Below, one piece after another: positions 481 through 22,683 of a stretch of DNA of 64,000 nt. The notes beneath the pieces are model-generated. The model saw nothing but the letters and a program-made list of their open reading frames with translations, searched no databases and was not told where the DNA came from. The stretch covers positions 1 to 64,000 of the forward strand of contig JAJRZV010000050.1 of assembly GCA_024275095.1 (NCBI GenBank), in the 5' to 3' direction. The translations under genes were made by a program, and so were the position numbers. Within the stretch, counting starts at the first letter, position 1, and the number at the start of each line of letters is the position of its first letter. The stretch comes from a bacterium. Its GTDB lineage: Bacteria; JAJRZV01.

Positions 481-756
481 GTGAAGGTTAAAGGGCTTCT
501 GGGTCTCAAACTGGGTACAACGCGGATATTTAACGATGAAGGTTTAAGTATTCCTGTTACAGTGGTGCAGGCTGGTCCCTGCACTGTTATTGCGATCCGG
601 ACCAAGGACAAAGATGGATATGACGCGGTGCTTCTTGGATTTCAGGAAGTAAAACTGAACAAGCTGACAAAACCAATGCGGGGTGTTTTTGAAAAACTTA
701 ATCTGGAAACCGGGTTCCGGTATCTCAAAGAGATGCCTGTTGAGCCGGGAGATTAA
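481..756 (+). CDS. rplC: 50S ribosomal protein L3 (uL3), N-terminal part ending at an in-frame TAA
   Basis: GTG start; 91 residues that match the N-terminal half of L3 (MKVKGLLGLKLGTTRIF, then LSIPVTVVQAGPC and DGYDAVLLGF). Translation stops at TAA 754-756, yet the remaining L3 sequence resumes in exactly the same frame just downstream (763-1122). L3 is normally one chain of about 205-215 aa and is essential for assembly of the peptidyl-transferase region. The stop lies in the linker before the strand that normally begins with a V/L-x-x-G-Q/M motif. A sense codon such as GAA here would give an uninterrupted 213-residue L3. Either a consensus error or a true split gene; see findings. Confidence 0.9.
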   Translation: MKVKGLLGLKLGTTRIFNDEGLSIPVTVVQAGPCTVIAIRTKDKDGYDAVLLGFQEVKLNKLTKPMRGVFEKLNLETGFRYLKEMPVEPGD

Positions 757-762
757 AATGAG

Positions 763-1122
763 TTGAAGCCCGGAATGGTGCTCAGCGCAGGTGACGTGTT
801 TACTCCTGCTATGAGAGTGGACGTAAGAGGGAAATCCAAAGGGAGAGGGTTTCAGGGAGTTGTAAAACGTTGGGGTTTCGCAGGTGGACCTGATAGCCAT
901 GGTTCGAGTCTTTTTCACAGAAGACCGGGTTCCATCGGAACATCAACTTTTCCAGGTCGCGTTCTGAAAGGGAAAAAGATGGCAGGTCATATGGGTGATA
1001 AATGGGTTACGATCGTGAACCTTCAGGTTGTGGATGTCACCGATGACAACCTGGTCCTTATCAAGGGAGCTGTGCCCGGTCACAAAGGAGGCCTTTTGCT
1101 CATAAGGGAGAGCAAACGATGA
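763..1122 (+). CDS. rplC: 50S ribosomal protein L3 (uL3), C-terminal part
   Basis: This carries the rest of L3 in the frame of 481-756: [37 protein letters not shown] and [10 protein letters not shown], all L3 hallmarks that thread toward the peptidyl-transferase centre. The first possible start after the TAA is TTG at 763. A GGGAG at 747-751 could support reinitiation 6 nt after the stop, so two L3 polypeptides are conceivable. The coding sequence itself is intact with no frameshift. It overlaps rplD by 4 nt (ATGA). A single-base error at 754 remains the simplest explanation. Confidence 0.9.
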
Positions 1123-13749: not shown

Positions 13750-13755
13750 TATAAT
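13750..13755 (+). promoter_or_regulatory. Possible -10 element upstream of rpoA
   Basis: A perfect TATAAT lies in the 57-nt gap between rpsD and rpoA, the only substantial gap in the alpha operon. I see no convincing -35 box at 16-18 nt. It may give rpoA-rplQ additional transcription, or may simply be AT-rich spacer. Confidence 0.25.
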
Positions 13756-13784
13756 TGAGGGTCAGGTAAAAAGGAGGTTAAAAC

Positions 13785-14810
13785 ATGAAGGATGTGAAAA
13801 CCCTCGGGCTTGTAGTTCCAGAGATTATTAAAGTTGAAAAAAACAGTTATTCTCGAACCTATGGAAAATTTTATGCAGAGCCCCTTGAAAGGGGATTCGG
13901 TACCACTATCGGTAATGCTTTGCGTCGTATATTGCTCTCATACATAAAAGGTGCAGCGGTTACTGCGGTGAAAATTGAAGGTGCTGAACACGAGTTTACC
14001 TCTCTGCCCGGAGTATACGAGGATGTGACGGACATCATTCTCAACATCAAGCAAATTCGTATTGCTTACGACCGTGATGAAGAAAAAGAAATGAGGCTGG
14101 ATATGTCGGGAGAGGGAGAGGTGCTTGCTGGTGATATTCAACATGATGATAGCATCAGAATTGTAAATCCAGACCTTCACATTGCCACACTTGAAAAAGA
14201 TGGAAAACTTAACATTACCATGAAGGTAAAGACAGGCCGTGGGTTCATGCCCGCAGAAAGAAACAAAAGTGATGACCTTCCAGTGGGATACATTGCTATT
14301 GACTCGATTTTTTCTCCCGTAACCAAGGCTGTATTCCGTGTGGAAAACATGATGTATGCCGGGCGAGCTGACTATGACCGTTTGATACTGGAGATATGGA
14401 CAGACGGAACCGTAACCCCTGAAAGTGCGCTCAGACAGGCGAAGGATATTCTTCTGCGGCATGTGGACGTGTTTGAAAATATTGAATCAATGGAAGAGGA
14501 TGAAGGAGATCTCTACGAAAAGCAGCGTCGCGAGAAGGTGAGGCGCTTGATGAGCCACCTGCTCAAACCGGTGAGCGAACTGGAACTTTCTGTGCGCTCG
14601 GCCAATTGCTTGAAGTCGGCAGGAATCAAGCAGATTAAAGACCTGGTTGTCAAGTCTGAATACGATTTGCTTAAAACCCCTAATTTCGGCCGTAAATCCC
14701 TCAGCGAGATTAAGGATGTTCTTTCGACCATGGGTTTGAGGCTCGGAATGACCCAGGAAGAAGTGGATATTATTCTCAAAGAGGGTGAGCGGCTGGAAAT
14801 AAAGGAGTAG
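13785..14810 (+). CDS. rpoA: DNA-directed RNA polymerase subunit alpha
   Basis: 341 aa. The N-terminal dimerisation domain ([36 protein letters not shown]) and the C-terminal DNA/activator-binding domain with helix-hairpin-helix features ([27 protein letters not shown]) are both complete. It nucleates assembly of core polymerase. AAGGAGG precedes the ATG. Standard position between rpsD and rplQ. Confidence 0.98.
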
Positions 14811-14814
14811 TGCC

Positions 14815-15351
14815 ATGCGTCATCGAAAGGGATACAAAAAACTGGGAAGACCCACCCAGCATCGAATGATGATGTTTCGGAATATGGTAACATCCCTTAT
14901 TCTCCAGGAGCGCATTGTGACAACAGTTGCCAAGGCCAAGGAAGCGCGCAAATTTGCCGACAAAATGATTACCCTTGCTAAAGACGGCTCACTGGAGTCA
15001 CGTCGCCGGGCCCATGCTTTTCTCATGCGTAAAGACGCGGTGCGTAAACTTTTTGATGAACTTGCTGAAAGATATAAGGAAAGAAACGGTGGCTACACCA
15101 GGGTTATTCGACTGGGATGGCGAAGAGGAGACGGGGCAGAACAGGCGATCCTTGAGCTGGTTGACAGGGTTGAAAAGCCCAAAAAGAAAGAGGAGAAGCC
15201 AGAAAAGAAAACTCCCAGGAAGACGAAGGTTAAAGCAAAAGCTAAGGAAAAGAAAGCAGAGGTAAAACCTGAAGAAGAGAAAAAACCTCGCGAGAGCGAG
15301 GAGAAGAAGCGGCGTCGCTGGAGATGGTTCTTTAAGAAGAAGGGCACGTAA
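14815..15351 (+). CDS. rplQ: 50S ribosomal protein L17 (bL17) with Lys-rich C-terminal extension
   Basis: 178 aa versus 115-130 in most bacteria. Residues 1-115 are a standard L17 (MRHRKGYKKLGRPTQHRMMMFRNMVTSLI, GGYTRVIRLGWRRGDGAEQAILELVD). Residues 116-178 form a low-complexity tail dominated by Lys, Glu, Pro and Arg, ending in Trp and Phe residues among Lys/Arg. The frame is clean to TAA, so the tail is real. It closes the ribosomal operon; no obvious intrinsic terminator follows. Confidence 0.95.
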   Translation: MRHRKGYKKLGRPTQHRMMMFRNMVTSLILQERIVTTVAKAKEARKFADKMITLAKDGSLESRRRAHAFLMRKDAVRKLFDELAERYKERNGGYTRVIRLGWRRGDGAEQAILELVDRVEKPKKKEEKPEKKTPRKTKVKAKAKEKKAEVKPEEEKKPRESEEKKRRRWRWFFKKKGT

Positions 15352-16455
15352 GGATTTGACTAGACTTTTTGTACACTTTTGAAAAGTACCTCCGGGATCT
15401 GGTCTCATGTATGAAAGCCTCCCATGATGTCAAGAAATAATTCGTTCAAGGTTTTTCTTAAGGGACTGTTATCACCTCTATATTTTGTTTCGGTGAATCA
15501 CTTTTTGGCTCGTATGCCATATTCACGGCAATACATGTATGCGTCCTTAGAAGGACAAGAGCATTTTATGCGGGGGAGCTTCCCAATCATTTATCGGGTT
15601 AAAAAACGAGTTTCTAAAGGCAAATAAAAGTGCATTTTTTACCCATCAAGACCTCGGGCATGCTCCGCCGGAGAAATTATATCTCATAAACCTTTCAATA
15701 TCATAAGGAGATTTTTCCTTAAGCACGAAGAAGGAAGCTTTAACAAGTTCATGAGCGAGTGCGAGGGAGGCTTTTGCGTATTCTTTGGCTTTTTCATATT
15801 TTCATAAGAGTTTTTTGCATTGGCCCGGAAAAAAGCGAAACATTTTCTCTGAAAAAATATGAGAGACCTTCTTCTCATGTGTACATCTCCTGGATAGATG
15901 TTTTACATCCTGTCACACCTGAGTCAAAGCTTATTTTCCCTGTTCACTGTGAAGAGATTTAGTGAGATAAATCTCAGCCGGAGTTATGAGCCCAGATGAT
16001 GAGCAGGGTTTTCGCCGATTAAACCCTGGAGAACCGTTCCCGGTGATACTGAATACCTCCTCGCTGCTTCTTCCACCGATAGCTTTCTTTTTAAAACACA
16101 AGCACGATCTCAAGTTTCTGCTCCAACGGTATTTCTGCTCTCCTGCCCGTGGCTCACTTCCTCCTTTGAAACTGTTTTTATTTTATCCCTGGCGGGCCAT
16201 GAACCTGCTCCGAAAGTCTCACTTATCAAATGTTCCGGTTTAGGTGAGGCAATACATCCGGCAATGTGTGAGTGGCGTGGGTCGTTGAGCATCCGGGAAT
16301 GAACGGAAACCATTGTAAGGCAGATGCCCAGTTGTAAGTAGTGACGGAGGATTTTTTGTACTTTTTCGAAAAACAGGAAGAAGTGACGCATTGCGTTGTC
16401 TCCTGAGGTTTTTATCTGGTAGTATAAAAACAACTTTTTGCGCGGGGGGTAACTT
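15352..16455. other. 1.1-kb gene-poor region
   Basis: No open frame here has a convincing product, ribosome binding site and codon pattern together. Short frames on both strands (for example 15424-15627 +, 15986-16243 +, 15931-16113 -) resemble nothing I know. The minus strand at 15646-15801 encodes what looks like the tail of a transposase. The region precedes ribBA, but the conserved FMN riboswitch core is not visible. Best read as decayed sequence, possibly an old insertion. Confidence 0.5.
15646..15801 (-). pseudogene. Possible C-terminal remnant of an IS110-like transposase
   Basis: Reading the minus strand after an in-frame TGA at 15804-15802 gives 51 residues including KAKEYAKASLALAHELVKA and then FFVLKEKSPYDIERFM. 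This resembles the helical C-terminal end of IS110/IS116/IS902-type transposases (A-x-x-LA-x-x-L-x-x-x-x-Y/F-x-x-L-K-x-x-x-x-YD). Upstream similarity seems to continue only across a frame change. No terminal repeats seen. The assignment rests on a short match from memory, so it is tentative; a decayed helical protein of another family is possible. Confidence 0.35.
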
Positions 16456-17688
16456 ATGGTTGTGGTGAGTGCAGAAGAGGCAATAGAAGAAATACGCAAA
16501 GGTAATATGGTGATTCTTGTTGACGACGAGGACCGTGAAAATGAAGGTGACCTCTGCATTGCTGCAGAAAAGGTGACACCTGAGGTTATAAATTTTATGG
16601 CCAAGTATGGCCGAGGTCTTATCTGCTTGGCCCTTACGGAAGAACGTTGCCGGGAGCTGGACCTCAAGCCAATGGTTACGGATAACACTGCTCCATTTCA
16701 GACAGCCTTTACTGTATCGATAGATGCAAGGGAAGGCACCACCACCGGAATTTCCGCTTATGATCGCGCTCTCACCATTAAAAAAGCAGTGGATCCGAAT
16801 GCCAGACCTTCGGATTTTGTACGGCCGGGTCACGTTTTTCCACTTATGGCCAGGAAAGGGGGTGTGCTGGTTCGGGCAGGTCAGACGGAAGGGTCTGTAG
16901 ATCTCGCAAGGCTTGCTGGCCTCACTCCCGCTGCGGTGATATGCGAGATTATGAAAGATGACGGCACCATGGCTCGCATGCCGGATCTGGAGAAATTTGC
17001 AAAAGGGCACGGGCTGAAGATTGTTACTATTGAAGAGATTATTCGCTATCGTCTGAAAACGGAAAAATTTGTACGTCGCGTGGTGGTATCGCGACTTCCC
17101 ACCTCAGATTACGGAGAATTCACCGTGATTGCGTATGAAAACGACATTGATACTTCCGTACACGTGGCCTTGGTGAAGGGAGAGGTTCGTGAAGATGAGC
17201 CGGTACTTGTACGCGTTCATTCTGAATGTCTTACCGGGGATGTTTTCGGCTCGTCGCGTTGTGATTGCGGCCCTCAACTGCGCAGGGCTATGGAACTTAT
17301 CGCGGAGGAAGGTAAGGGTGTTCTTCTTTACCTTCGCCAGGAAGGCAGAGGCATCGGACTTGTAAACAAACTCAAGGCCTATAATCTCCAGGATGAGGGT
17401 CTGGATACAGTGGAGGCTAACGAAAGGCTCGGTTTTCCTCCTGACCTGCGGGATTACGGTATCGGTGCCCAGATTCTCGTGGATGTGGGAGTGAGAAAGA
17501 TGAAGCTCATGACCAACAACCCGCGCAAGATCGTGGGACTGGAAGGATATGGGTTGACAGTGGTGGAGCGGGTTCCCTTGGAGGTATGTCCCACGGAAGA
17601 GAACATGAAGTATATAATTGCAAAGAAGGAGAAACTTGGTCATCTTATAGATATTGAAAGCCTGAAGAAAAAGGCTTCCAAAAAATGA
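16456..17688 (+). CDS. ribBA: Bifunctional DHBP synthase / GTP cyclohydrolase II
   Basis: 410 aa. N-terminal half (about 1-203) is 3,4-dihydroxy-2-butanone-4-phosphate synthase: [38 protein letters not shown] and H/E residues of the active site. The C-terminal half (about 205-400) is GTP cyclohydrolase II with the zinc site [18 protein letters not shown] and the [14 protein letters not shown] motifs. It supplies both early substrates of riboflavin synthesis. A G-rich ribosome binding site (GCGGGGGG) precedes ATG 16456. Followed 10 nt later by ribH; ribD and ribE are not in the window. Confidence 0.98.
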
Positions 17689-21419: not shown

Positions 21420-22502
21420 TTAAATAATTCCTTCTTCTTCCAGTGCCTCACGTACCTTTTTTTTGGTGTCTGCGAGACGCTCTTCCATATAACGGGTTAC
21501 CGTGTCCATGATGGTTGGATACATGAGTAATATTTCCTTAAACCGCTCTTTTTCGATTTTCATAAGTTCGGATTTTTTCAATGCTGTAACTGTCGCTGTG
21601 GTTTTGTCATCGGTAAGAAGAGCTATTTCGCCGAAGAAATCTCCTTCTCTGAGTTCAGCCAGCCTTACTCGTTTGCCTCCACCGATGCCTCTCGATACAA
21701 CAAATGCTCCGCTCCGGATCACGTAAAAAGCTTCTCCTGGAGTTCCCTCAATGATTACATGGTCTCCTTTTTCTACCTTCACCAGTACGAATCGCTTGGC
21801 AATTTCCTGAAGGTCGTCTTCGTTCAGATCGCGGAACAGGGGGATGTTTGAAAGTGTCGGTAGAAATACATGGTGGAAATAGAGATTTTCAACGTATTTT
21901 TGAACCTGCGGATATTTGCGGGATATTTCTTTAAGGTGTTTTTCACTGACTTCCAGGACTTCGCAATCGCTTTCCGCCATCACAGAAGCGGGCAGGGGTG
22001 TTTTGGCAAAGAAGGAGTACTGGCCTATAAAGGACCCTGGTCCCAGCGTTTTGAGCACGCGCACCTCACCATTTTCGCTTTTTTCCACCCGCGCCTCTCC
22101 AGAGGTCAGGAGATAAATCGCCTTTGCCCTTTCTCCCTGTTCAAGTATCACATCCCCTGCGGGAAAAACATGCCTGTTGAGATGGCGAAGAACATCAATA
22201 AATTCTTCGTTAGAAAGTGAAGAGAAGAACAGGATTTTGGGTATCTTGAGAGGTTTCTTTTTCGGTGTTTTTTCTTCTGCTGGCTCTTTTGCTTCCTCTG
22301 CACCTTCCGCCGTAATTTCTTCTACGGCTGGTTCTGGCGGGCTTCCGGTGAGCATTTTTATGAGGTCTTCAACGCGGGGATCATCCGGCTTGAGGTCATA
22401 AAGAATCTTGCTGAGTGAAAGTGCCTGGGGAACGAAACCCTTGTTGTAATACGCAAAGGCAACATCCAGATATTTTTCAAAGGCCTCTTCCACTTTTTTC
22501 AA
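21420..22502 (-). CDS. Protein with two cyclic-nucleotide-binding-like domains (C-terminal part of an interrupted gene)
   Basis: 360 aa from TTG 22502. Residues 1-50 continue TPR-like helices (EEAFEKYLDVAFAYYNKG, SKILYDLKPDD), followed by an acidic/Pro linker (55-83), a first CNMP fold (about 90-205) and a second (about 215-335). The phosphate-binding cassettes are degenerate: the first has GQYSFF in place of GEIAL, the second keeps GEIALL but has Thr where the Arg that holds the cyclic phosphate should be. Ligand binding is therefore doubtful. The frame continues upstream through one TAA into a 46-codon TPR ORF, so the real protein is probably about 411 aa. Confidence 0.8.
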   Translation of the reverse strand: MKKVEEAFEKYLDVAFAYYNKGFVPQALSLSKILYDLKPDDPRVEDLIKMLTGSPPEPAVEEITAEGAEEAKEPAEEKTPKKKPLKIPKILFFSSLSNEEFIDVLRHLNRHVFPAGDVILEQGERAKAIYLLTSGEARVEKSENGEVRVLKTLGPGSFIGQYSFFAKTPLPASVMAESDCEVLEVSEKHLKEISRKYPQVQKYVENLYFHHVFLPTLSNIPLFRDLNEDDLQEIAKRFVLVKVEKGDHVIIEGTPGEAFYVIRSGAFVVSRGIGGGKRVRLAELREGDFFGEIALLTDDKTTATVTALKKSELMKIEKERFKEILLMYPTIMDTVTRYMEERLADTKKKVREALEEEGII

Positions 22503-22514
22503 GCGGTGGAGGCA

Positions 22515-22655
22515 TTAGGCCACCTTCATCTGAATTTTGAGGTCCTCTTTTTTGAGCTTTTCGGCCTGGCGGAAAAGTTCGAGTGCTTTTTCATATTTCC
22601 CCTTCATGAAATGTTTATAAGCATCGTCAATAATTTTTCCTGCAGACTTTGCCAT
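22515..22655 (-). CDS. Small TPR ORF: N-terminal part of the interrupted CNMP-fold gene
   Basis: 46 aa beginning at ATG 22655, which lies 9 nt after a perfect AAGGAGG. It encodes one TPR hairpin (DDAYKHFMKGKYEKALELFRQAEKLKK) and ends ...MKVA at TAA 22517-22515. The next codons in the same frame read CLHRLKKVEEAFEKY, which is exactly how a second TPR helix (VAECLHRL) would continue. The stop therefore appears to interrupt one gene, most simply GAA changed to TAA. Too short to be found by ordinary length cut-offs. Confidence 0.7.
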   Translation of the reverse strand: MAKSAGKIIDDAYKHFMKGKYEKALELFRQAEKLKKEDLKIQMKVA

Positions 22656-22683
22656 TTTTTTCATCCTCCTTGATAATGTTTAA

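Follow-up and report, generated by a model that had tools for sequence, protein, structure and literature searches.

The window, a stretch of 64,000 nucleotides, carries rplC, the gene for ribosomal protein L3, between rpsJ (S10) and rplD (L4) in a normal and otherwise intact S10-spc operon. Coordinates of the features discussed here are collected in Table 1. The gene runs from a GTG start at position 481 to a TGA stop at 1120-1122 on the forward strand as a single frame, and its sole internal stop is the TAA at 754-756 (codon 92), which is flanked by GAT (751-753) and AAT (757-759), with the frame identical on both sides. The first-pass annotation, which described two halves of L3 lying in one frame and divided by this TAA, was exact on a reading of 481-1122. 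Read through the stop, the product matches the bacterial L3 family TIGR03625 over the whole profile (1-202 of 202, residues 5-209) with a score of 251.4 bits against a cut-off of 142.9, and matches Thermus L3 chains in the PDB over residues 3-213. Coding-potential scores are positive on either side of the TAA, at 0.47 and 0.28 per codon. A bacterial L3 gene is expected to be a single uninterrupted frame; rplC as given has the TAA within it. At the edge of the window, the contig starts inside tuf (EF-Tu, positions 1-141); the contig break may be due to a second tuf copy.

Table 1. Features of the rplC locus and other genes with in-frame nonsense codons in the source genome.
Feature	Location	Strand	Remarks
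rplC, ribosomal protein L3 (uL3)	481..1122 (window)	+	One frame with internal TAA; matches to TIGR03625 and L3 chains in the PDB
In-frame TAA in rplC	754..756 (window)	+	Probable consensus error; none in compared L3 genes; core genes of the same genome similarly broken
GGGAG within codons CCG GGA GAT, weakly resembling a Shine-Dalgarno sequence	747..751 (window)	+	GGAG spacing 11 nt to TTG 763, 6 nt to ATG 758
TTG, restart codon proposed by the first-pass annotation	763..765 (window)	+	First in-frame start-type codon past the TAA
TPR and cyclic-nucleotide-binding (cNMP) protein, TAA at 22515-22517	21615..22679 (window)	-	Second such gene in the window
dnaE (DNA polymerase III alpha), TAA in finger domain	L182 (G000:C21) 1989	-	Coding-potential scan
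prfB (RF2), in-frame TAA	L182 (G000:C21) 8711	+	Coding-potential scan
leuA, TAG	L201 3282	-	Coding-potential scan
sufB, TGA	L204 2205	+	Coding-potential scan
M16 peptidase gene, TAG			Coding-potential scan
Methyltransferase gene, TAA			Coding-potential scan
MR/MLE-type enzyme (enolase superfamily), TAA			Stop between its two domains

The position of the stop was considered in the context of the L3 fold. The TAA codon falls in a hydrophilic linker that varies in both sequence and length. The structure predicted for the read-through chain (mean pLDDT 83) places residue 92 within a short helix (91-94) between strands at 78-86 and 112-118. Both results fit the earlier suggestion of a stop located in a linker that joins structural units.

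The source genome is a 2.45 Mb draft in 136 contigs and is 97% complete. A search of these contigs found no second L3 locus, leaving rplC as the only L3 gene, and the possibility raised earlier of an intact second copy was not borne out. Comparison of rplC with other genomes, also proposed in the first-pass annotation, gave a split in none: L3 was matched in 57 of 58 other genomes with no internal stop in any of the 57, and no internal stop occurs at the position of 754-756 in 80 further named loci. These comparisons are with distant relatives, since no second member of the source phylum is among the genomes compared; identity to the nearest relatives is 51-57%, and the best value among the named genomes scanned is 53%. 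A search of viral contigs for close relatives of this L3 gave no match, and literature searches found no report of a split bacterial L3. A TAG flagged in the L3 gene of another genome (G026) as a conserved split is the normal C-terminal end of the gene.

We sampled approximately 1.07 Mb (about 43%) of the source genome for stops with strong coding potential in one frame on both sides, and checked the read-through frames of candidate breaks against Pfam and NCBIfam. The resulting list of broken genes is the output of this coding-potential scan and not of a preset gene set. Most candidates proved to be ordinary neighbouring genes rather than broken single genes; the apparent stops in P-II/GlnA, RsfS/SPOUT methyltransferase, SecE/NusG, S-AdoMet synthetase/AdoHcyase, SpeE and others are gene ends. 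Besides L3, eight in-frame nonsense codons lie inside conserved genes in the sampled sequence. Domain or family matches cross the stops in these eight genes: Pfam TPR/ANAPC3 matches span the TAA in the read-through frame of the TPR/cNMP gene, and the two domains of the MR/MLE-type enzyme flank its TAA. A TrkH-like potassium transporter gene additionally shows an apparent frameshift at a T-run (L177, G000:C59, about 8350).

Two further stretches were noted separately. At L195 (G000:C36) 13750-16870, adjoining formylglycine-generating enzyme-like and carbamoyltransferase-like genes show several frame breaks, as judged from peptides only, which points either to pseudogenes or to poor assembly in this region. 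On the reverse strand at L152 (G000:C9) 4005, a TGA interrupts the frame of an acidic repetitive protein (GDVM*EGF). It lacks a confirming domain match across the stop and is possibly another nonsense error.

Counting L3, the nine internal stops comprise six TAA, two TAG and one TGA, where random substitution in the codon usage of the source predicts proportions of 0.39, 0.37 and 0.24, respectively. TAA is not significantly overrepresented (P(>=6 TAA) = 0.087), and the observed mix is close to what random substitution would give. We do not claim a G-to-T bias as the cause of the stops; the original bases are not inferable. The nine stops imply a substitution error rate of about 2-2.4 per 10,000 bases. 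A survey of odd residues and substitution types at conserved ribosomal-protein columns in the window, which has low power at 2e-4 per base and is uninformative here, found no excess, with odd residues of ordinary appearance in 16 of 405 columns.

Internal stops in the same genes were sought in other genomes. Among approximately 200 copies of L3, dnaE, prfB and sufB, one real internal stop was found, in dnaE (1/58); sufB (0/30) and prfB (0/56), like L3, had none, and three stops flagged in control prfB genes are terminal. The single case is a TAG in dnaE of a 5 Mb single-contig genome (G057; L227, G057:C1:2466428-2468251), the only control with such a stop. Because the control genes were picked for being broken in the source genome, the comparison shows that breaks are rare elsewhere and gives no rate for the source genome itself.

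Taken together, we consider it very probable that the rplC TAA is a substitution-type consensus error, for which we infer a wrong base call, and that rplC is intact in the organism. An error of assembly or sequencing in the draft genome would have placed the TAA at 754-756, and in the living organism rplC would be an ordinary intact gene that yields a single L3 chain. The argument rests on the similar breaks in dnaE, prfB and other core genes of the same draft, together with their rarity in the control genomes and the stop-codon mix: the breaks elsewhere in the assembly (dnaE, prfB, leuA, sufB and four more) include essential genes, and the breaking of core and dispensable genes alike is the pattern of errors and is unlike that of viable mutations. 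A consensus error would cover L3 and the other broken genes jointly, without anything peculiar to L3. What counts against it is the implied rate, which is high for a well-covered short-read assembly, and the ordinary state of the conserved ribosomal-protein columns, a test of little power. Consensus error was one of three options in the first-pass annotation, and it gains from the recurrence of nonsense codons and frame breaks; the other two, a split L3 and readthrough, find no support in the weak restart site or in the decoding evidence given below.

A split L3 would consist of residues 1-91 and a second chain begun at TTG 763, made separately and assembling on 23S rRNA. The location of the stop in a variable linker, at a short helix or loop of the predicted model, would suit such an arrangement, as would the reading frame that appears intact on either side and the presence of TTG 763 only 6 nt past the stop with GGAG upstream; the positions given earlier for GGGAG and TTG are correct. 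The restart site is weak, however, with a 4-base match at 11 nt spacing where most genes of the operon have matches of 5-7 bases. The out-of-frame ATG at 758 is better placed relative to GGAG, but opens an ORF of two codons. The frame also continues through the TAA without a new N-terminus, L3 is split here in none of the other genomes or named loci compared, and the same genome would need split dnaE, prfB, leuA and sufB as well. We therefore regard a split protein as highly unlikely. About as improbable is that rplC carries a genuine nonsense mutation or is a pseudogene, the functional L3 being encoded at another site or by other strains in a mixture. Draft genomes may merge strains, and at 97% completeness a second L3 copy could be missing, but the genome has a single L3, rplC sits in an operon that is otherwise intact, and L3 is essential in bacteria where this has been tested.

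Readthrough or partial stop reassignment, in which ribosomes pass the internal stops and full-length L3 is made, would explain how several core genes with otherwise lethal internal stops are tolerated, and TAA is the commonest of those stops. The stops are nevertheless of all three kinds, and the predominance of TAA falls short of significance. None of the 43 tRNAs found in the source genome (97% complete) carries the UUA anticodon needed to read UAA, and TAA is an ordinary terminator that ends 322 of 871 long ORFs. RF1 is intact. The RF2 gene prfB retains, at L182 8464-8479, the autoregulatory site AGGGGGTATCTTTGAC for programmed +1 frameshifting at UGA that is known from E. coli prfB; such a site would serve a purpose only where UGA functions as a stop. 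Readthrough also leaves the frame breaks unexplained, and we judge it highly unlikely. The broader view that the internal stops in L3, dnaE, RF2 and other core genes are real, with proteins made by readthrough or as paired fragments, is very unlikely. If it were true, an organism that translated past stops in L3, release factor 2 and a DNA polymerase would be most unexpected. As matters stand, the finding is mainly a caution that the stops and frame breaks of this assembly should not be taken as biology without the reads.

Compared with known systems, rplC resembles bacterial L3 (TIGR03625/PF00297) in its sequence and length, in its place within the operon and in the motifs that it conserves, and differs in the TAA at codon 92, which is absent from every compared homologue. 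Split ribosomal protein genes are known, such as rpl2 in the mitochondria of some plant lineages, and in both cases the reading frame of a ribosomal protein lies in two parts. The halves of mitochondrial rpl2 are expressed from separate genes, each with signals of its own, whereas the rplC frame passes through the stop and the signals of its second half are weak. The source assembly has a parallel in the consensus errors of metagenome-type drafts: scattered nonsense codons and frame breaks occur in both and affect every type of gene, essential ones among them, with the difference that in the source assembly we infer the error.
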